Shown piece after piece: positions 2 to 55,832 of a stretch of 64,000 bases of DNA. The notes below the pieces were generated by a model, which did no database searches, was not told the DNA's origin, and saw nothing but the letters and a program-made list of their open reading frames with translations. Numbering within the stretch: the first letter of the stretch is position 1; each line of letters opens with the position of its first letter. The position numbers were made by a program, and so were the translations under genes. The stretch is from Stygiobacter sp. RIFOXYC2_FULL_38_25 (GTDB lineage: Bacteria; Bacteroidota; Ignavibacteria; Ignavibacteriales; Melioribacteraceae). The stretch covers positions 62,001 through 126,000 of the forward strand of contig MHAZ01000001.1 of the NCBI GenBank assembly GCA_001803165.1, in the 5' to 3' direction.

Positions 2-1114
2 AAAATCACGTCTATCATTGTTAAAAACGAAGATTTGATTGTGGGAACGATGGAGTGCGGCGTTTTTTTTAGAAACGAAAAAGATAAAAACTGGATCACA
101 AGAAATGACGGTTTACAAGGACAAACAATAACCTCATTAGTCAATCATAATAATACAATTTTTGCTGGAACAAATGGAAATGGAGTGTTTCGATTTGATG
201 ACACCGAGAAAAAGTGGGTTGCAATCAATGTTGGACTGGAAAATGCTAATAGTAAAATCATAAGACAATTTTTGAGCGATGGAGACACATTAACAGTACT
301 AACTGAAGATGGGCTATTTAATACTTTGGATTTGGGAAACACTTGGATAAATAAAAACGACGGTTTAACAGGAAATAACTATAAGGCAATTTCAAAATGT
401 AATTCAGCATATTTTGTATTGTTTGACAATTCAATTTATAAGCATGAGAAGAACAAATTGTGGGAAAAAGTAAGTATACCAAGCAGCGTAGATAATATTA
501 AGACAATGCTTTCATATGATAAATATATTTTTATTAATTATTACAATAAAATTTATTGTACAAAAGATAATGGTATGACATGGGAGAATTTTACCGAAAC
601 ATTATCCAACACAGTTATTTCAAAGCTAACTACTAATAATAATTTATTATTTGCGACAACAATAGATGGAATTTATTATACAAAAATAGGCACTAGTAAT
701 TGGAAAAGTTTTAACGAAGGATTAATCAATGAAAATATCGAATCCATATTTGTTACTAATGATTTAATATATGTTGCAACAGAAAGTGCGAGAATATTTA
801 AGAATAATCTTTCTAACTTATCCAGCATAATAAAAGAAAGAGTAATACCAGCTAGTTTCCGCTTGGGACAAAACTATCCAAATCCATTTAATCCAGCTAC
901 GAATATTTCATACTCTATATCCAAAACTTCAATAGTTATACTAAAGGTTTACGATGTTCTTGGTAATGACATCTGTACTCTTTTAAATAAAATTCAAAAT
1001 CCCGGCGAGTATATAGTAAAATATGAGCCGTGGAATATTACAAGCGGGATCTATTACTACGCTCTCATAGTAGATAATACGAAGCTTGTAAAGAAAATGA
1101 TTCTAATAAAATAA
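2..1114 (+). CDS. Secreted beta-propeller protein with T9SS sorting domain (5' partial)
   Basis: The reading frame is open to the left edge of the window, so the true start lies outside; an internal TTG at 35 is not needed. About 275 residues form repeated blades of the 'ligand-binding sensor / two-component regulator propeller' kind, with recurring G-x-x-W/F and 'TxDGL' turns. The last ~80 residues, starting at FRLGQNYPNPFNP, form a complete type IX secretion sorting domain ending in KKMILIK. The family is exported through the Por/T9SS machinery and anchored on, or released from, the cell surface; the ligand is unknown. It ends 21 bp before the PEGA-domain gene, so the two are probably co-transcribed. 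Confidence 0.8.
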   Translation, partial: KITSIIVKNEDLIVGTMECGVFFRNEKDKNWITRNDGLQGQTITSLVNHNNTIFAGTNGNGVFRFDDTEKKWVAINVGLENANSKIIRQFLSDGDTLTVLTEDGLFNTLDLGNTWINKNDGLTGNNYKAISKCNSAYFVLFDNSIYKHEKNKLWEKVSIPSSVDNIKTMLSYDKYIFINYYNKIYCTKDNGMTWENFTETLSNTVISKLTTNNNLLFATTIDGIYYTKIGTSNWKSFNEGLINENIESIFVTNDLIYVATESARIFKNNLSNLSSIIKERVIPASFRLGQNYPNPFNPATNISYSISKTSIVILKVYDVLGNDICTLLNKIQNPGEYIVKYEPWNITSGIYYYALIVDNTKLVKKMILIK

Positions 1115-6653: not shown

Positions 6654-8102
6654 ATGGGAAAGAGCGTTTTAATATATGTTATAGGAGCTTTTTTAATATT
6701 CACCGTAGCAATGCTTACTAGCGCGCGCATTGTTGATGCGGGAAGTCAAAACTCTATTAACTACTTAAGCAATGCTAAAGCAAGAAGTATTTGCAATAGT
6801 ATGACTAGTATTCTCCTTTCCCGTTTGGCAGACAGTACGGATTTAAGAATAACTGAACCGGAAACAATGTCATTGTTAGATGGAACTGCGACATACACTA
6901 TCACCGAAGTAGATGAATCCGGTGAAGAAGAAGATGATGATGAAGGAGAAGATCACGAAGGACATGAAGATGATGATGAAGGAGAAGACCACGAAGGGCA
7001 TGAAGACGATGATGAAGGAGAAGGGCATGAAGATGATGATGATGAAGGGGAAGACCACGAAGGGCATGAAGATGATGATGATGAAGGGGAAGACCACGAA
7101 GGGCATGAAGATGATGATGATGAAGGGGAAGACCACGAAGGACATGAAGACGATGATGATGAAGGGGAAGACCACGAAGGACATGAAGACGATGATGATG
7201 ATGAAGGAGAAGATCATGAAGGACATGAAGATGATGACGAACACGAAGGAGTTTTAGGTGGGTTGATTAAGATTTATGTATCAGCCATTTATAACAATGT
7301 TACGAGGATTCAAGTAACTTATGTTTCATTAAGTACAAATGGTACAATTCCTAGTTCAGTTCAGTCACTGATCACTGCACGTAATGCAGTTTCTACCAGT
7401 GGTAATCTTGTTGTAGATGGTAGAAATCATTCTTCAAGCGGTTCGTTAAGCGAGGATGATGGTGCTGTCGCAATCTGGACAACATCAAGCTATTCTCAGA
7501 CTGGAAACTCAAAGGTTGGCGGAACTTACGAAACTATTAGCTATGAACCCTCTAAGCCAGGTAATTCAAACGTTATCAAAACATTCTCCACATTTTCCGG
7601 CGGATATCCAGATTCACCAGATGAGGTTTTCGGCGGCTCTTCTTCTGGTTTTACAGAAGGCAAGCTTAAAAGTATAGCTCAGAGTGGCGATGGAGGCAGT
7701 CAATATGTTACTAACCCAAGCAGCCTACATTTTCCGTTGAAAGGGATTACATACGTTGAACTTCCTAGTGGCGGTAAATGGCAGTCAACAAATATTGAAG
7801 GCTCGGGGATTCTAATAGTCCATAACGCATCGGGCAACTCTTTAATCAAAAATTTGAATACAGGAACATTCAAAGGTTTTGTTGTAGCTGATGATATTGT
7901 TCATGTTCACTCTTCAATAATTGGGGCTGTATTTTTGCTGTCATCGTTCCCATCGGATGGAAATTTTATTGGGAATGGAAACGGCTCAATTGTGTTTTCT
8001 AAGGACGCTATTACAAAAGCGACCGCAATTGTTAGTAACGGAGCAGATAATTACGGCTTCGGGAAAACAAGGCTTCTTGTTTTAAACTCTTATGAGAGAT
8101 AG
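6654..8102 (+). CDS. Pilin-like (PilX-type) protein with acidic/His tandem repeat
   Basis: This 482-aa protein has an N-terminal membrane helix (~5-22). A helical stalk is then interrupted at ~89-199 by a low-complexity tandem repeat of about 12-13 residues, EGEDHEGHEDDDD and variants. The C-terminal part has a parallel-beta look (GSGILIVHNASGN, GTFKGFVVADDIV, GAVFLLSS), as in the C-terminal regions of PilX-like adhesin pilins. The repeat is strongly negative with evenly spaced His-His pairs, so binding of divalent metals (Ca, Zn, Ni, Cu) outside the membrane is plausible but unproven. It is the last gene of a three-gene cluster. The DNA repeat has triplet-preserving units, so copy number may vary without breaking the frame. 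Confidence 0.6.
   Translation: MGKSVLIYVIGAFLIFTVAMLTSARIVDAGSQNSINYLSNAKARSICNSMTSILLSRLADSTDLRITEPETMSLLDGTATYTITEVDESGEEEDDDEGEDHEGHEDDDEGEDHEGHEDDDEGEGHEDDDDEGEDHEGHEDDDDEGEDHEGHEDDDDEGEDHEGHEDDDDEGEDHEGHEDDDDDEGEDHEGHEDDDEHEGVLGGLIKIYVSAIYNNVTRIQVTYVSLSTNGTIPSSVQSLITARNAVSTSGNLVVDGRNHSSSGSLSEDDGAVAIWTTSSYSQTGNSKVGGTYETISYEPSKPGNSNVIKTFSTFSGGYPDSPDEVFGGSSSGFTEGKLKSIAQSGDGGSQYVTNPSSLHFPLKGITYVELPSGGKWQSTNIEGSGILIVHNASGNSLIKNLNTGTFKGFVVADDIVHVHSSIIGAVFLLSSFPSDGNFIGNGNGSIVFSKDAITKATAIVSNGADNYGFGKTRLLVLNSYER
6921..7248 (+). repeat. In-frame minisatellite encoding acidic/His repeats
   Basis: Units of roughly 36-39 bp built on GATGATGAAGGGGAAGACCA and GAAGGGCATGAA recur about seven to eight times. 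Unit length varies only in the number of GAT/GAC codons. All variants stay in frame. Third-position changes (GAC/GAT, GGG/GGA) show that some copies are older. Confidence 0.85.
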
Positions 8103-31248: not shown

Positions 31249-31295
31249 AATTGAATTTGCTGATTAGGTTCGCACTACCGCCGTAAAACTACTTG

Positions 31296-32501
31296 TTATT
31301 TGATCAACAACATTTTTTTTGTAATAGAGTATAATGGAGTTATCAAGCGATAAAAATATATACCGCTTTGTATCTCTCGACTTCGCTCGAGATGACGCGC
31401 GTTAAATGTAACTTTGTAATCACCCGCTTGTTTGTATTCATCAACTAATGTTGCAACTTCTCTTCCAAGTACATCGTAAACTTTCAACGTTGTAAAGACG
31501 ACCCGCCGGGTCGTCTCTACGTTTGGTATTGTAAAGTTTATTGTCGTTTCCGGATTAAACGGATTTGGATAATTCTGAAGTAGCTGGAATGCAGCCGGAA
31601 GCGTTTCTTTATCAACTGAAGTTGTTTTCATTAAAACCCTCGTAAAGAAATCCGTAATTCTCTTCTTTGTAGAATCAGCTCCAAATGAACCTCCTCCGTG
31701 TCCCGCACCCGGCTGTGGGATAAATGTTACATCGTGAATGATACTTCTATAAGCAGAATCTAATTCCACACTTTGGGCAAATGGAACTGTCCCGTCTGCG
31801 GTTCCATGCATTATTAAGAATGGAGGATCATCTTTTGAAACGTAGGAAATTGGACTAACAGATTTACATTTCTCCGGATTTGTCCTTAAATCGCCGCCGA
31901 TTAATTTTCCTTCCGGCGAAGCAGCATCGCAATGATTGCTTGTCGGAGGAACAGTTCCGCAAATCGTCATAAAATTTGCCGGACCATACCAATCGCAAAC
32001 GGCTTGAACGCGGCTGGAAAAATTTAAGTTGCCTCCAACAATTCCTTCAAGTTCTTGTACATCGCCGGAACTGCCAACGAGTGCCGCTAAATGTCCGCCG
32101 GCAGAGCTTCCAAAGACGCCAATTTTATCCGGATCAAAATTATATTTAGTAGCATTGGCGCGAAGCCATCTGATTGCTGCTTTGCAATCGTTTATCTGAC
32201 CCGGATGAATTGCTTTATCTGTGAGACGGTAATTAATGCTTACAATCCCAAATCCTTTTTGAAGAAGCCATGTGCCGTTTACGCTTTCTTTACTTCCGGC
32301 TTGCCAGCCTCCGCCGTGGATCCAAACTACAATTGGAAATGGATTTGCGGCTTGCTGAGGTAGATAAATATCCAGTGTTAAACTGATTCCGTTTACCGCA
32401 GCATATTCAACGTTTGCAAAATTCGGTTTTAAGGTTTGAGCAGAGAGAATAGCAGCAAAAAGAAATAAAGCCGTAACTATTAATTTGTATGTGTTCATCA
32501 A
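31296..32501 (-). CDS. Secreted alpha/beta-hydrolase (esterase-like) with T9SS tail
   Basis: A 401-aa protein. A signal peptide (~1-21) is followed by an esterase-like alpha/beta-hydrolase with oxyanion HGGGW (~64-68) and nucleophile elbow GSSAGG; the expected acid and His lie near GTADGTVP and GAGHGGG. This matches the BD-FAE/carboxylesterase group; the substrate could be a plant or acyl ester. The last ~85 residues are a T9SS sorting domain (LLQNYPNPFNPET to KKMLLIK), so it is exported to the surface. Two palindromes at 31492-31520 and 31374-31397 lie inside this domain and add extra residues (RRVVFTT and RHLERSREI) in frame. Both fall between conserved strands, so the domain may still work. 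Confidence 0.85.
   Translation of the reverse strand: MMNTYKLIVTALFLFAAILSAQTLKPNFANVEYAAVNGISLTLDIYLPQQAANPFPIVVWIHGGGWQAGSKESVNGTWLLQKGFGIVSINYRLTDKAIHPGQINDCKAAIRWLRANATKYNFDPDKIGVFGSSAGGHLAALVGSSGDVQELEGIVGGNLNFSSRVQAVCDWYGPANFMTICGTVPPTSNHCDAASPEGKLIGGDLRTNPEKCKSVSPISYVSKDDPPFLIMHGTADGTVPFAQSVELDSAYRSIIHDVTFIPQPGAGHGGGSFGADSTKKRITDFFTRVLMKTTSVDKETLPAAFQLLQNYPNPFNPETTINFTIPNVETTRRVVFTTLKVYDVLGREVATLVDEYKQAGDYKVTFNARHLERSREIQSGIYFYRLITPLYSITKKMLLIK
31374..31397. repeat. Small palindromic repeat inserted in a coding region
   Basis: TCTCGA (31375-31380), 6-nt loop, TCGAGA (31387-31392), followed by TGACGCGC. It codes (minus strand) for RHLERSREI inside the T9SS domain of the esterase, where other members read straight from the Asn-Leu strand into SGIYFY. 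The sequence type is a REP-like motif that I recall from other genomes of this group. Confidence 0.65.
31492..31520. repeat. Small palindromic repeat inserted in a coding region
   Basis: AGACGACCC (31496-31504) and GGGTCGTCT (31508-31516) are perfect 9-bp arms around GCC, extended by GTA/TAC outside one mismatch. It adds the residues TRRVVFTT in the esterase sorting domain. Other domain members run directly into the LKVYDVLGREV strand. Confidence 0.7.
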
Positions 32502-33890: not shown

Positions 33891-34062
33891 ACCGGTTGTG
33901 TGAATTAGATTTAATAGAATGATTAGTTGGCGCTTTACCTAAAAAACGGGCTTCATGAATGAAGCCCCTACAAAAAAATTGTAGGGGTTTGATTAATCAA
34001 ACCCGAAAAAATTATTCTTGTGAACCCTTTTGTACTTTTGAATTTTAATTCACACAACCGGT
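33891..34062. mobile_element. MITE-like element, copy 1
   Basis: A 172-bp non-coding element has terminal inverted repeats (ACCGGTTGTGTGAATT at the left; the reverse complement AATTCACACAACCGGT at the right). It is flanked by the direct repeat TAATAAA (33884-33890 and 34063-34069). Three internal hairpins are seen: GGGCTTCAT/ATGAAGCCC, CCTACAA/TTGTAGG and the perfect palindrome GGGTTTGATT/AATCAAACCC. A second copy lies at 50624-50791. No transposase is present; it would need one encoded elsewhere. Confidence 0.8.
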
Positions 34063-50505: not shown

Positions 50506-51132
50506 TTATTAATAGAGCCAGCATTTTAGTACTAGAACCGCAACCGGGAGCTTTGTATTAAGTTGCGATCATTTTTGGTGATTGCTAATCGTCAATTGTT
50601 GTTGCATTCAAAATATATTTTAAACCAGTTGGTGAATTAGATTTAGTCGAATTATTTGCCTGAGATTTACCTAAAAAACGGACTTCATAAATGAAGTCCC
50701 TACAAAAAATTGTAGGGGTTTGATTAATCAAACCCGTAAAATTATTCTTGTGATTTTCTTATAATTTTAAATTTTAATTCGCACAACCGGTTATTTTAAA
50801 TCTGTTTTTAGAAATATTAGAAGGACTGCCTACTTCTAGGGTATTAAGATATTGGTTTACCATCAGTCAAAATAAAATTGCTACGGATGATTTCCTTTTG
50901 TTAGGAAGATAGTTTTTGCATGATAGCTTGTCCAGCTTGTTATAATAATATGGGGTAAATATAGTAATCGGTCATTCTCTTAGTATTAAAGAATTACAAT
51001 TAATCCGGTTAGCTGGAAAAATATTCCCCTCAAAAAATACAAATGAATAGGAAACCTTATAGATGATTAAGCGTCATATTACTATCTCAATTCAGCTTTA
51101 TAATAAACGAATACGTATTAAAGAAAGATAAT
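50506..51132. other. Intergenic region with MITE copy 2
   Basis: About 630 bp without a gene. MITE copy 2 fills 50624-50791; the rest is AT-rich and has no clear motif, and must include the promoter of the T9SS cargo gene at 51133. Confidence 0.5.
50624..50791. mobile_element. MITE-like element, copy 2
   Basis: A 168-bp element matching copy 1 at 33891-34062. The terminal repeats are ACCAGTTGGTGAATT at the left (slightly decayed) and AATTCGCACAACCGGT at the right. The 8-bp direct repeat TATTTTAA flanks it on both sides (50616-50623 and 50792-50799). The first hairpin reads GGACTTCAT/ATGAAGTCC, so the G-C pair of copy 1 is A-T here, and both arms changed together. The GGGTTTGATT/AATCAAACCC palindrome is unchanged. 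Confidence 0.82.
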
Positions 51133-52413
51133 ATGAAGGAATTGTTATTTACTGTTACAGTTTTACTATTCTTTTATTCTACATCCCTTGCGCAACAATC
51201 CGAATGGAAAGTCTATGATCCAACAAATTCCGGCTTGCCGGATAAACAAATAAACTCGATTCATATTGACGATCAAAATGTAAAGTGGATTGGCACAAGC
51301 TCCGGCTTGGTTAAGTTTGATAATTCAAACTGGACTCTTTTCAACACTACGAATTCACCTTTGCCTTCAAATTACATAACTGGAGTTGCAAGTGACGGAA
51401 AAAACAGTACTTGGATTGGTACAGACAGCGGGATTGCCCACTTAACAAATGGTAATTGGGAAGTTTTTAGAAAAGCAAATTCTGCAATAGTTAGCAATAG
51501 CATTTCTCAAGTTAAATTTGCCAGTGGCGCAATCTGGTTTACCACCGATAAAGGATTGATGAAGTTTTCTAATAACCAGTGGCAGATATACGACAGCAAC
51601 AATTCCGGTCTCTATATTGATTTTGTTTGTTCGGTTGTTGCTGATAAAGATGGAACGATATGGAGCGGCACATTTAATTATCTAGATTTTAACGGAGTGT
51701 TGATTTCTTACAACAATGGAGGATGGACATACTATAAGCTGAAAGATCATGGATTGTTTTCAAGTTTTCCAGATGCGCTTGTTTACGATTCCCAAAACAA
51801 TATGTGGCTTGGAACAAAAGGAACAACCGGTGGCGCTTTGGTAAAAATCAGGGGCACAGTGTGGACTGTTTACGATAAGAACAATTCCGGTTATAAAGGC
51901 GGTGGAATAAACAGCATTGCAATAGAAGGAGATGATAAATGGATCGGGGGCAACGGTGTAACTTTATTCAAAGATGGAAAATGGACTACATTTAATAAAA
52001 GTAACTCCGGTCTTCCAGATGATTTTGTAAGCGAAATAACGATTGACAAATTTGGAAATAAATGGATTGCAACTATTAGCGGCGGTTTGGCGGTTTATAA
52101 AAAGGATGGAGTTATTTCTTCTGTAGTGAATGATAATAAGCCAGTTAACAGCACATTTCAATTGTTTGATAATTACCCGAATCCCTTTAACAATGCAACA
52201 AAAGTACGCTTCTCAATTCCGGCTAGAAATAGAATTCAATTAAAGCTTTATGATATACTTGGAAGAGAATTGTCTACGCTTATAGATGAATTAAAAGATG
52301 CCGGCGTTTATGAAGCTGTAGTAAATCTGGATGGTTATCCAAGCGGAGTTTATCTGTGTAAACTTACTTCCGGAAATTTCAGCTCGGTTAAAAAGCTAAT
52401 TTACTTAAAATGA
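51133..52413 (+). CDS. Secreted propeller protein with T9SS tail
   Basis: A 426-aa protein with a signal peptide (~1-20). About seven beta-propeller blades of the 'two-component regulator propeller' type follow; each has a W-I-G-T-x-S/D-G turn (KWIGTSSGLVKF, TWIGTDSGIAHL, MWLGTKGT). The T9SS sorting domain (FDNYPNPFNNATK to VKKLIYLK) takes the last ~75 residues. It should be exported to the surface; the ligand is unknown. Its stop overlaps an in-frame start of the next gene and the two probably share a transcript. Confidence 0.85.
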   Translation: MKELLFTVTVLLFFYSTSLAQQSEWKVYDPTNSGLPDKQINSIHIDDQNVKWIGTSSGLVKFDNSNWTLFNTTNSPLPSNYITGVASDGKNSTWIGTDSGIAHLTNGNWEVFRKANSAIVSNSISQVKFASGAIWFTTDKGLMKFSNNQWQIYDSNNSGLYIDFVCSVVADKDGTIWSGTFNYLDFNGVLISYNNGGWTYYKLKDHGLFSSFPDALVYDSQNNMWLGTKGTTGGALVKIRGTVWTVYDKNNSGYKGGGINSIAIEGDDKWIGGNGVTLFKDGKWTTFNKSNSGLPDDFVSEITIDKFGNKWIATISGGLAVYKKDGVISSVVNDNKPVNSTFQLFDNYPNPFNNATKVRFSIPARNRIQLKLYDILGRELSTLIDELKDAGVYEAVVNLDGYPSGVYLCKLTSGNFSSVKKLIYLK

Positions 52414-52463: not shown

Positions 52464-53369
52464 ATGAATATGAACACAACAATAAATGTAAACCTTTTTG
52501 TTGAAGGAAGAATTGTTAAACAAATACTGCTTTTAATAATTCTTGCATGTTTAGTCTTTAACGGGCAGTCTTACGGACAAACAGTAGCGCCTCTTGCCAA
52601 AGGAAATGTTTGGGTATATCAAGGGAAAGAATCCTCTGCTAAGAGAGTCAAATATTATTTATCGGATACGATTACAATAGACGGTTCTGTTTATTTTGTC
52701 TGCAATAAAACTATTACGGATACAATTTTCCGATACTTCAGATTACGCGATGATGGCGTTTATGTGTGCAGACTTAGGAACAAAGATGTTCCCTATTATA
52801 AGTTGAATTATACTTATGCCGATACTTTAAAAAACATTGAATGGTTTGGTATATGGAGAACAGTTCTAAAGAGTGAAACTCAAGAGAATTTATTTGGTAA
52901 AGGGGCGTTGGTTAAAAATTTACATGCTAACTGGGTATTTACTCAGAGTGATGAAAAATGGACGGATGAATATGGACTTGTTTCTACTACGAATCCAATT
53001 GTAACCGGATCTAATACTTTGATAGGCTGTGTTATCAATGGTAAAGTATATGGTGATACCAGCATGGTGGTTACTAGTGTTAAAGAGAATAATATTTCGG
53101 GTGAGTTTTCTTTAGAACAGAACTATCCGAATCCATTTAACCCGGAAACAACTATTAGCTATAAGGTACAAGTTGCAAGCCAAGTAAGCTTAAAGGTGTA
53201 TGATGTCTTGGGAAGAGAAATTGTAACATTGGTAGATGAATTTAAGCAGCCGGGGGTTTACAATTCTACATTCTACACTCTTCGTTCTTCACTACCAAGC
53301 GGTGTTTATTTCTATAAACTACAAGCCGGAAAATATTCTAAAGTAAATAAGATGATGTTAGTAAGATAA
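52464..53369 (+). CDS. Secreted hypothetical protein with T9SS tail
   Basis: An AGGAAAGG at 4 nt favours ATG 52464; the frame is open back to ATG 52410, which overlaps the upstream stop. From 52464 the ~301-aa protein has a signal peptide (LLLIILACLVFNGQSYGQ), a ~170-residue domain of unknown type with paired Tyr/Trp strands (KGNVWVYQGKESSAK), and a full T9SS sorting domain (EQNYPNPFNPETT to KMMLVR). The cargo domain is not recognised. Confidence 0.75.
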   Translation: MNMNTTINVNLFVEGRIVKQILLLIILACLVFNGQSYGQTVAPLAKGNVWVYQGKESSAKRVKYYLSDTITIDGSVYFVCNKTITDTIFRYFRLRDDGVYVCRLRNKDVPYYKLNYTYADTLKNIEWFGIWRTVLKSETQENLFGKGALVKNLHANWVFTQSDEKWTDEYGLVSTTNPIVTGSNTLIGCVINGKVYGDTSMVVTSVKENNISGEFSLEQNYPNPFNPETTISYKVQVASQVSLKVYDVLGREIVTLVDEFKQPGVYNSTFYTLRSSLPSGVYFYKLQAGKYSKVNKMMLVR

Positions 53370-53726: not shown

Positions 53727-55832
53727 ATGAAGGAGTATGAGAAAAACAATTATCTACTTTTTCTATTGGTATTTACTTTTTGTCTTGGGGTGCAAATTTA
53801 CGGGCAACCGAATCCACTAAAAGGATTGGTTGGACCGTGCGATAATTCAAAAATATCTAACGGTGGCTGGGGAGGGCATAATATTATTTGCGAAGATGGA
53901 AGAGTATTTGAAACACCAGACAGCGGAGCTACTTGGATTGAAAAGAAAGTTGCTGACAATTTTATTGCCAAAATGATGGCTATGCAAAAAACTGGAAGTG
54001 GATTAAGTCAAAACGGTTCAATAGTTGGTAATAATGGGAAGATTTTTTCATCTAATGATAATGACCGAAACTGGCTGCAAACAAGTTCCGGTACAACAAA
54101 CAACTTGAATAATCTTGTATATGGTTGGTCTCCAACTACTCATCAAAGCTGGGGATTTGCTGTTGGAGATAATTCGACTGTTCTTATCACAAAAGATGGA
54201 GGCAAAACTTGGACAAAACAATCTACACCATATCAGTACGATCATTTTTATGGAGTGTATTTTTTGAATAGTGAAGTTGGCTGGATTGTTGGCTCTATGG
54301 GAATTATTTATAAAACAATTAACTCTGGAACCACTTGGACATACGTAGAAGGAGATCATTCCAATCCGACATACAAAGGAGTAGCTTTTAGTTCCAGCGA
54401 TAGCGGCAACGTAGTTGGCTCAAATGGATTTATTGGTCGTACAACTAATGGCGGTAGTACTTGGACTCAACAAAATAGCGGTACTACGGAAACCTTAAAC
54501 GATATTGAATTTGTTGGTGCTGGTTCAGATACCGGTGCAGTCGTAGGCAATAAGGGAACTTTGCTTAACACAACCGATGGTGGAAATAGTTGGACAAAAC
54601 AAGATTTGGGTACAACTTACAATCTTAATGATGTAACTTATGATACACGAGGATATATTTGGATTGCCGGAGATAATGGGATTTTGTTTACTAACAATCC
54701 TAGATTTCTTACCCCGACTGCGCCAAGCGGACTTAACGCTACACCAAAATCTTCGAGCCAAATTGACCTTTCTTGGCTTGATAACTCCAACAATGAAAGC
54801 GGATTTATTATTGAAAGAAAAGATGGACCTAACGAACCTTGGCAGGATACAGATACAGCAGGTGCTAACGTTGTGATTCATCACGATACTGGTCTTTCTC
54901 CAAATAAGCAATATCAATACCGGGTAAGTGCATATAATACTAGTGGTGAATCATCTTACAGTAATACGGTTGATGCTAGTACATTAAATGTTGTTCCTTC
55001 AAAGCCTACAAATCTAACAGCAACACCAAAGAGCAGTTCACAAATTGATCTTTCCTGGCTAGATAATTCCAACAATGAAACCGGATTTAAAATTGAGCGT
55101 AAAACCGAACAGCAAGAATTTTCAGAAGTTGGCGGCGCGGACTCTAATGCAACTGCATACACAGATAGGAATTTAGATGACGGTTTGAACTATATATATC
55201 GTGTCGCATCGTTAAATACAATAGGCAAGTCGCCTTATTCTAATGAAAGCTCTGCTACAACACAACTGAACGCTCCAACCAACCTCACTGCAAAAAAAAG
55301 TACTTCCGGTGGGGCTCAATTAGACTGGAAGGATAATTCGAAAAGTGAAAATGGTTTTACTATTGAAAAGAAATCCGGTACCGGAAATTTTTCTAAGTTA
55401 ACGAATGTTGCAGCAAACGCAACTTCATATATTGATTCTCAAGTAAGTGTTGGGCAGCAGCTTTCGTTCCGTGTTCAGGCTTTCAATAGCATTATTATTT
55501 CGGGTTTTTCAAATACAGCTGATATTGTGATAACATCTGTAAATAATGAAATTGAAATACCAACAGAATATTCGTTGAAACAGAACTATCCGAATCCATT
55601 TAACCCGGAGACAATTATCAGTTATGAATTGCCTGAAGCAGGATATGTTACATTGAAAGTTTTTGATATACTTGGCAACGAAATAGTTACGCTTGTGAAT
55701 AATTTTAAATCGGCTGGCAAACATTATTCTACTCTCATTACAACAGATTCCAAATTTACAAGCGGCTGTTACATTTACAAATTAACTGCCGGAAGTTTCT
55801 CGAGTGTTAGAAAAATGTTGCTCATTAAGTGA
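53727..55832 (+). CDS. Secreted YCF48-like/BNR and FN3 protein with T9SS tail
   Basis: A 701-aa protein with a signal peptide (~10-27). A beta-propeller region (~30-330) is built of YCF48/BNR repeats with Asp-box-like turns such as GATWIEKK, GKTWTKQS, GTTWTYV, GSTWTQQN and GNSWTKQD. Three fibronectin III domains follow (~335-425, 427-515, 515-600), the first two sharing the stretch SSSQIDLSWLDNSNNE. The end is a T9SS domain (KQNYPNPFNPETI to VRKMLLIK). It is a large surface adhesin or a polysaccharide-interacting protein by layout. The near-identical FN3 parts suggest recent internal duplication. Confidence 0.85.
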   Translation: MKEYEKNNYLLFLLVFTFCLGVQIYGQPNPLKGLVGPCDNSKISNGGWGGHNIICEDGRVFETPDSGATWIEKKVADNFIAKMMAMQKTGSGLSQNGSIVGNNGKIFSSNDNDRNWLQTSSGTTNNLNNLVYGWSPTTHQSWGFAVGDNSTVLITKDGGKTWTKQSTPYQYDHFYGVYFLNSEVGWIVGSMGIIYKTINSGTTWTYVEGDHSNPTYKGVAFSSSDSGNVVGSNGFIGRTTNGGSTWTQQNSGTTETLNDIEFVGAGSDTGAVVGNKGTLLNTTDGGNSWTKQDLGTTYNLNDVTYDTRGYIWIAGDNGILFTNNPRFLTPTAPSGLNATPKSSSQIDLSWLDNSNNESGFIIERKDGPNEPWQDTDTAGANVVIHHDTGLSPNKQYQYRVSAYNTSGESSYSNTVDASTLNVVPSKPTNLTATPKSSSQIDLSWLDNSNNETGFKIERKTEQQEFSEVGGADSNATAYTDRNLDDGLNYIYRVASLNTIGKSPYSNESSATTQLNAPTNLTAKKSTSGGAQLDWKDNSKSENGFTIEKKSGTGNFSKLTNVAANATSYIDSQVSVGQQLSFRVQAFNSIIISGFSNTADIVITSVNNEIEIPTEYSLKQNYPNPFNPETIISYELPEAGYVTLKVFDILGNEIVTLVNNFKSAGKHYSTLITTDSKFTSGCYIYKLTAGSFSSVRKMLLIK

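Follow-up and report, generated by a model that had tools for sequence, protein, structure and literature searches.

The window analysed here is a stretch of 64,000 nt from contig C1 (positions 62001-126000) of G000, a 4.4-Mb genome of the Ignavibacteriales in 22 contigs. On its minus strand, the open reading frame at 31296..32501 encodes a secreted esterase of the BD-FAE type (PF20434, 244 bits) with a C-terminal T9SS sorting domain. This domain, which runs from NYPNPFNP to KKMLLIK (31299..31571, minus strand), reached 35.8 bits in the profile search with TIGR04183 (curated cut-off 23) and 27.4 bits with PF18962 (cut-off 27), and is thus a T9SS type A domain. It contains two palindromes, both in frame and both at the positions given by the original prediction. 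Palindrome 1 (31372..31397) is a CGTC-like repeat that encodes RHLERSREI in the minus-strand gene. Its core TCTCGACTTCGCTCGAGA lies at 31375-31392 with 0 mismatches, and 0.07 matches with up to 3 mismatches are expected by chance in the window. The palindrome is imperfect, with arms of 6 bp, and a longer stem is formed only if a 2-base bulge is permitted. Palindrome 2 (31492..31520) is a double-foot GTAG REP that encodes VETTRRVVFT. Its core is located at 31496-31516, and the arms reach 14 bp at 31492-31520 with one mismatch. The other four TIGR04183 domains of the window (875..1102, 52174..52401, 53124..53357 and 55587..55820, all on the plus strand) carry neither insert, as had been predicted. 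The window also holds an overlapping direct-repeat array of 16 copies at 6887-7274 (family D1), with copies at intervals that are multiples of 3 bases; it may be a repetitive coding stretch.

We extracted and compared all 150 TIGR04183 matches of the genome. Inserts are taken up by three loops, which we call slot A (before VTLKVYDVLG, loop 1-2), slot B (before SGVYFY, loop 4-5) and slot C (before FVQTKKM, loop 5-6). In the esterase, palindrome 2 fills slot A and palindrome 1 fills slot B. An AlphaFold model of the sorting domain fragment, computed from 24 sequences and with a mean pLDDT of 78.7, has six strands. Palindrome 1 (fragment residues 70-78) is predicted to be wholly loop between strands 61-68 and 81-88, whereas palindrome 2 (residues 29-38) would occupy the loop 27-34 and also the start of the strand 35-43; slot C corresponds to the predicted loop 89-92. 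In a fold search, the model appeared as an Ig-like sandwich, with known T9SS C-terminal domains and substrates among the first 30 matches, none of which reached an E value of 0.001; the fold matches are weak and contribute little. The esterase domain is 12 residues longer than the common 80-residue form, with about six extra residues in each of the two places, so native residues must also have been replaced by the inserts. Protein sequence has been gained, but not by the plain addition of eight (TRRVVFTT) and nine (RHLERSREI) residues that was first proposed.

A genome search for both palindromes, suggested with the original prediction as a check, revealed dispersed and mostly intergenic repeats. 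Palindrome 1 has 22 copies with at most 1 mismatch (reversed-pattern control, 0). Twelve of these occupy the same slot of sorting domains on different proteins, and the rest are intergenic or at the edges of open frames. Across the order, palindrome 1 was found in slot B only in the source species and its sister species. CGTC REPs are defined by an unpaired CGTC (or TGTC) tag, a stem of 8-9 bp starting with AT and a CCA tail (PMC3733652). The slot B copies mostly read CGTC-AT, several of them with CCA, but AGTC or TGTC is found in the intergenic copies, and the stem needs the 2-base bulge; palindrome 1 resembles the CGTC REPs and may or may not be one of them. One copy, in C21_642816, is inverted. 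We do not take it as proof of a separate insertion, as an inversion between its arms explains the orientation equally well.

Palindrome 2 occurs at 5 places in the genome with at most 2 mismatches (reversed-pattern control, 0), and its exact stem is also found between genes at C17:511504. REPs of the GTAG and CGTC superfamilies are palindromes of 20-40 bp that are mainly intergenic, and some are intragenic without disrupting the gene (PMC3733652). TnpA_REP (RAYT) subclass 2.4 is associated with double-foot REPs, whose two ends read GTAG and CTAC, and with an in-frame REP in the transposase gene (PMC6006769). With 29 bases, palindrome 2 is within this size range. The C5 copy (GTAGAGACG..CGTCTCTAC) has the GTAG/CTAC ends, and the window copy ends in GTAG/TTAC. 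The corresponding GTAG pattern gave 121 matches in the genome and 1 match with the reversed-pattern control. As is typical of REPs, the family is dispersed, mainly intergenic and also present as one-sided tags in inverted pairs. Among the matches listed, all GTAG palindromes outside sorting domains are intergenic, except for one within a RAYT gene and another right at the terminus of an open reading frame. Likewise among the matches listed, 22 of 66 places are in sorting domains, which make up 0.8% of the genome. In a CATG-centred search of the genome, the stems TTGCATGCAA and CGCCATGGCG were present only in sorting domains and may be old residents of the domain and not recent arrivals. Palindrome 2 is thus placed among the REPs, an element type already described, and within these in the GTAG double-foot group. 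Two intergenic clusters of GTAG-type REPs are also present in the window, at 33900-34010 (TTGTAGGGGTTTGATTAATCAAACCC) and 50632-50741 (GGGCTTCAT..ATGAAGCCCCTAC); they are 85-97% alike (families D5 and D6).

In the profile search of the genome, four Y1 transposases reached the cut-off. One of them, the RAYT gene L061 (C7:12069), is above the cut-off for Y1_Tnp and scored 58.8 bits with REP_Tyr_transpos, below the equivalog cut-off of 80. It contains the 28-bp palindrome GTAGAGACGAGGCATGCCTCGTCTTTAC in frame between the HuH motif (NHVH) and the Y motif (YVEQNP), and an identical 28-base sequence occupies slot A in the sorting domain C2_160223. The order of its motifs (NHVH, the insert VETRHASSLQH, WQ and YVEQNP) is that of subclass 2.4 with its in-frame REP. 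A second, minus-strand RAYT-like open reading frame, L027 (G000:C21:540271-543289), was missed by Pfam and contains a relative of palindrome 2. As for L061, its best match is REP_Tyr_transpos, below the equivalog cut-off. Two palindromes (GACGATTC.. and GACGACCC..) lie at its expected HuH region, and it may be a decayed transposase. The GTAG/CTAC ends and the RAYT-borne in-frame copy are shared with the subclass 2.4 system (PMC6006769). The in-frame copies described there are in the transposase, whereas here 12 of the 19 symmetrical CATG-centred copies (complete genome count) are in export-tag domains.

Palindromic families are present in around 53 of the 150 sorting domains, in 19 of them more than one, an approximate count as the classes are hand-made patterns that miss some cases, e.g., the GTAG palindrome of C10_26239. 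By class, inserts of the GTAG type were found in 31 domains, palindrome 1 in 18, CTCCC/CCTCCC in 11, the slot C type in 7, TCCGCC in 5, and others in 3. The palindrome-coded inserts come from at least five families, and these use the same slots in unrelated proteins. Chance palindromes are excluded by the controls: an inverted repeat score of at least 10 was reached by 33 of 149 sorting domains, by 0 of 146 upstream coding stretches of equal length and by 0 of 298 codon shuffles. The original prediction was correct in that the palindromes are dispersed repeats of the mobile type, that loops of a surface-export domain tolerate them, and that they add protein sequence. Their target is not the linkers of surface proteins at large, as it had supposed, but a set of three fixed loops within a single domain family. 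Slot B is also used by a non-palindromic repeat of the AATTCTCAATTCTC type (NSQFSIRNSQL) in many domains, e.g., C2_104533 and SC214_2510. This repeat is common in the sister species and apparently has the opposite orientation in C2_180234.

The palindromes could be kept for the hairpins that they form close to the mRNA 3' end, with a role in stability or termination, and the protein change would be a side effect. Sorting domains are at gene ends, REPs are typically situated past the coding region and close to 3' ends (PMC3733652), and palindromicity is conserved even though the stems vary. We nevertheless consider this explanation quite improbable, because palindromes are absent from roughly two thirds of the sorting domains, orthologs differ in this respect, the insert positions suit protein loops, and no Rfam family reached its gathering score at the esterase locus.

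GTAG palindromes also occupy slot B in 11 further genomes of the order, with stems that differ and are still palindromic. In a scan of 84,980 species, 20 loci showed the trait, and all but two are labelled Ignavibacteria, Ignavibacteriales, Ignavibacteriaceae, Ignavibacterium or Melioribacter. The two exceptions are from a bin labelled only Bacteroidetes bacterium; G006, which is in the same family as the window, has identical domains. All 38 GTAG inserts of the two sister genomes have a single reading frame and two junctions. The uniform frame may reflect selection for the VxT..xSL reading, common descent or a combination of the two, and one frame with two junctions is explained by common descent no less well than by repeated insertion.

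These data bear on the proposal that the residues coded by the palindromes are ancestral to a sorting-domain subfamily and that selection has preserved them for the sake of the protein sequence. In its favour, the GTAG inserts of slot B have the same frame and junctions across genera, and TTRRVVFTT is found in slot A of other genera and of another family of the order. The DNA, however, stays palindromic while the residues change: each inner stem pair is kept in 26-28 of the 28 distinct GTAG insert sequences, and just 10 of the 28 have the fourth and twenty-fifth bases (R of GTAR and Y of YTAC) paired. Furthermore, unrelated palindromes occupy the same slots, and the insert DNA matches intergenic repeats and a RAYT gene. 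Tandem paralogs are also unlike at slot B, as three neighbouring genes on C21 have a common slot A and three different slot B contents. Ancestral residues are hence an unlikely explanation. In the neighbouring paralogs C21_642816, C21_644295 and C21_645524, the slot A palindromes show a paired change in both arms, GTAGTGGACGC..GCGTCCACTAC versus GTAGAGGACGC..GCGTCCTCTAC, the pattern expected of hairpin-templated correction or of exchange.

Insertion in place can be seen in three ortholog pairs. In C3_21439, TCCGCCAACGGCGGA is present (net +12) where the ortholog is short, and C21_334479 and SC502_3530 have similar insertions. These pairs involve palindromes other than 1 and 2, or degenerate ones. 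Nested insertions are present as well. In slot B of L341 (G069:C173), a 30-base repeat lies near the centre of a GTAG palindrome with the reading frame kept, and nested palindromes are also found in slot A of C3_75 and of L184. The ortholog comparisons did not reveal a case in which palindrome 1 or palindrome 2 itself had entered an empty site.

We aligned the esterase gene with the same gene in relatives, as had been suggested. The esterase of the sister species (G002, a draft genome that is 75% complete) is 91% identical in the catalytic part and has a different sorting domain with neither palindrome. A homolog from a third species of the genus (62%) and two homologs from another family (54%) also have no palindromes. 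The inserts are thus not conserved residues of the subfamily, an outcome that would have spoken against the original prediction. The flanks of the esterase are syntenic with G002 on both sides (84.9% over 1007 bases and 77.7% over 1162 bases). Between them, the stretch 31250..31550 does not align with the sister locus, save for 63 bases at 31422-31484, and comprises the replaced domain and a short intergenic part. The domain is 90.5% identical over 221 bases to a domain on C10 and 87.7% identical over 228 bases to a domain on C5, both of them on unrelated proteins. When the 203-base module was searched for in 164 genomes from the order, with scores for the few top candidates of each genome, full-length matches of at least 85% were found only in the esterase, the C5 and C10 genes and one gene of G002. 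This G002 copy of the two-palindrome module (G002:C227) is on another gene, whose reciprocal best match is C2_160223.

The sorting domain of the esterase has been replaced between syntenic flanks, and both palindromes arrived together. The latter follows from the module common to C5, C10 and the G002 gene, taken with the different domain on the sister esterase between syntenic flanks. The original prediction had assumed two separate jumps into the esterase domain, which RAYTs or another kind of transposition could have driven. Palindromes are indeed dispersed in the genome, RAYT genes exist, one of them with an in-frame GTAG palindrome, and in-place insertions are known from the other ortholog pairs. 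Separate jumps are nonetheless very unlikely here, as the same two palindromes are at the same spots in C5, C10 and G002:C227, and the domain backbone of the sister ortholog is wholly different. The esterase acquired its module by replacement of the domain, and the module also occurs on two other genes here and on one in the sister species.

Replacement is not limited to the esterase. Among 33 reciprocal pairs of the two species, the median domain identity is 65% when either species has a repeat and 91% in repeat-free pairs (Mann-Whitney p 0.0005), a link between repeats and swapping that is confounded with the sequence similarity among repeat-bearing domains. The upstream identity is the same, 88%, for both groups. 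For 18 pairs, the most similar domain is not that of the ortholog but that of a paralog within the genome (one of them, C21_328392, is from a plain tandem-copy pair). As far as these alignments indicate, repeat-bearing sorting domains are often swapped between paralogs and repeat-free ones are not. In C21_39245, the last ~25 residues are orthologous and the stretch that begins at PNPFNP and ends at slot B is foreign, as expected for a partial conversion tract. A sharp onset of similarity at the domain edge in same-genome pairs was rejected as proof of conversion, since plain domain homology gives the same picture.

About a dozen of the 44 contig ends of G000 are within ~400 bases of a sorting domain (C3:75, C4:96, C5:40, C8:55, C12:135, C13:155, C17:41 and C21:95, and the ends of C2, C8, C12, C18 and C20), which suggests that sorting domains break the assembly. 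Contig ends of this kind show that the domains do confuse assembly, and short-read assemblies could have joined different genes at the repeated sorting domains, so that swapping would be an artefact. This is highly improbable. Given the synteny with the sister on either side of the esterase domain, an artefact would require two misjoins less than 300 bases apart; in addition, 11 of 17 swapped pairs have kept the orthologous downstream flank, and C21_39245 retains its own C-terminal residues.

The reading that we favour as very probable is that the esterase carries a borrowed sorting-domain module which already held two unrelated REP-type palindromes, and that such palindromes first enter sorting domains and then spread through a swapping pool. 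In the first step, to which the remnants described above point, REP-like palindromes would enter sorting-domain DNA. They would come from copies that are otherwise intergenic or, for the GTAG family, inside a RAYT gene, and would survive where they are in frame and in loops, i.e., in slots A, B and C. In the second step, for which the pattern is visible and the machinery is proposed, the ~150 sorting domains have conserved DNA in common, and the repeat-bearing ones would form an exchange pool. Whole or partial domains would be exchanged between unrelated genes, as in nonorthologous gene conversion, and inserts would thereby be spread and reshuffled. For the esterase, this second step would have delivered both palindromes at once. 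We infer that RAYTs moved the palindromes and that homologous recombination did the swapping. Export is probably unaffected, because the inserts are predicted to be mostly in outward loops, and mere tolerance of the inserts is the simplest reading.

A more active role of the palindromes is also conceivable. Hairpins in sorting-domain DNA might provoke breaks or template switches that drive domain exchange, with hairpin-templated correction keeping the palindromes palindromic. We regard this as rather unlikely. If true, REPs would serve as handles for recombination, by which T9SS cargo is re-tagged and diversified all the time.

In-frame REPs, RAYT-borne REPs and the palindromic elements of Rickettsia are already known. 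The REPs of the GTAG and CGTC superfamilies (PMC3733652) are similar to the repeats described here in size, in their GTAG and CGTC-like tags, and in being mostly intergenic with some non-disruptive intragenic copies. Their intragenic copies are in assorted genes, many of them for DNA repair, and mostly at differing sites, with recB of two Xanthomonas species as an exception; here, several repeat families use three fixed loops of one domain family. Rickettsia palindromic elements (RPE) are ~150 bp long and lie in frame in apparently functional proteins encoded by unrelated genes (PMC10969869, citing Ogata 2000, 2002). The palindromes of sorting domains are likewise in frame, but they are only ~15-40 bp long, are in one domain family and are spread with swapped domains. 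They work like RPE, and we do not class them as RPE. In Porphyromonas gingivalis, gingipains undergo domain rearrangement and allelic exchange; variation there affects the modules for catalysis and adhesion, with the C-terminal domain described as conserved (PMC5266723). The two cases are alike in that T9SS surface proteins are diversified by module recombination, whereas here the sorting domain itself is exchanged. In the open-access literature that we searched, we found no account of palindromes in sorting domains, nor of one export domain that serves both as a landing site for several families (three loops, order-wide) and as a swapping pool.

For practical work, sorting domains are not safely orthologous with the rest of the protein, and they may break short-read assemblies. 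In-frame palindromes have until now been reported mostly from scattered, unrelated genes. The ~150 copies of one domain are a replicated natural experiment, with several repeat families in the same three loops, orthologs with and without inserts, and insertions nested in one another. They show noncoding repeats turning into protein sequence, with domain swapping as the means of spread.
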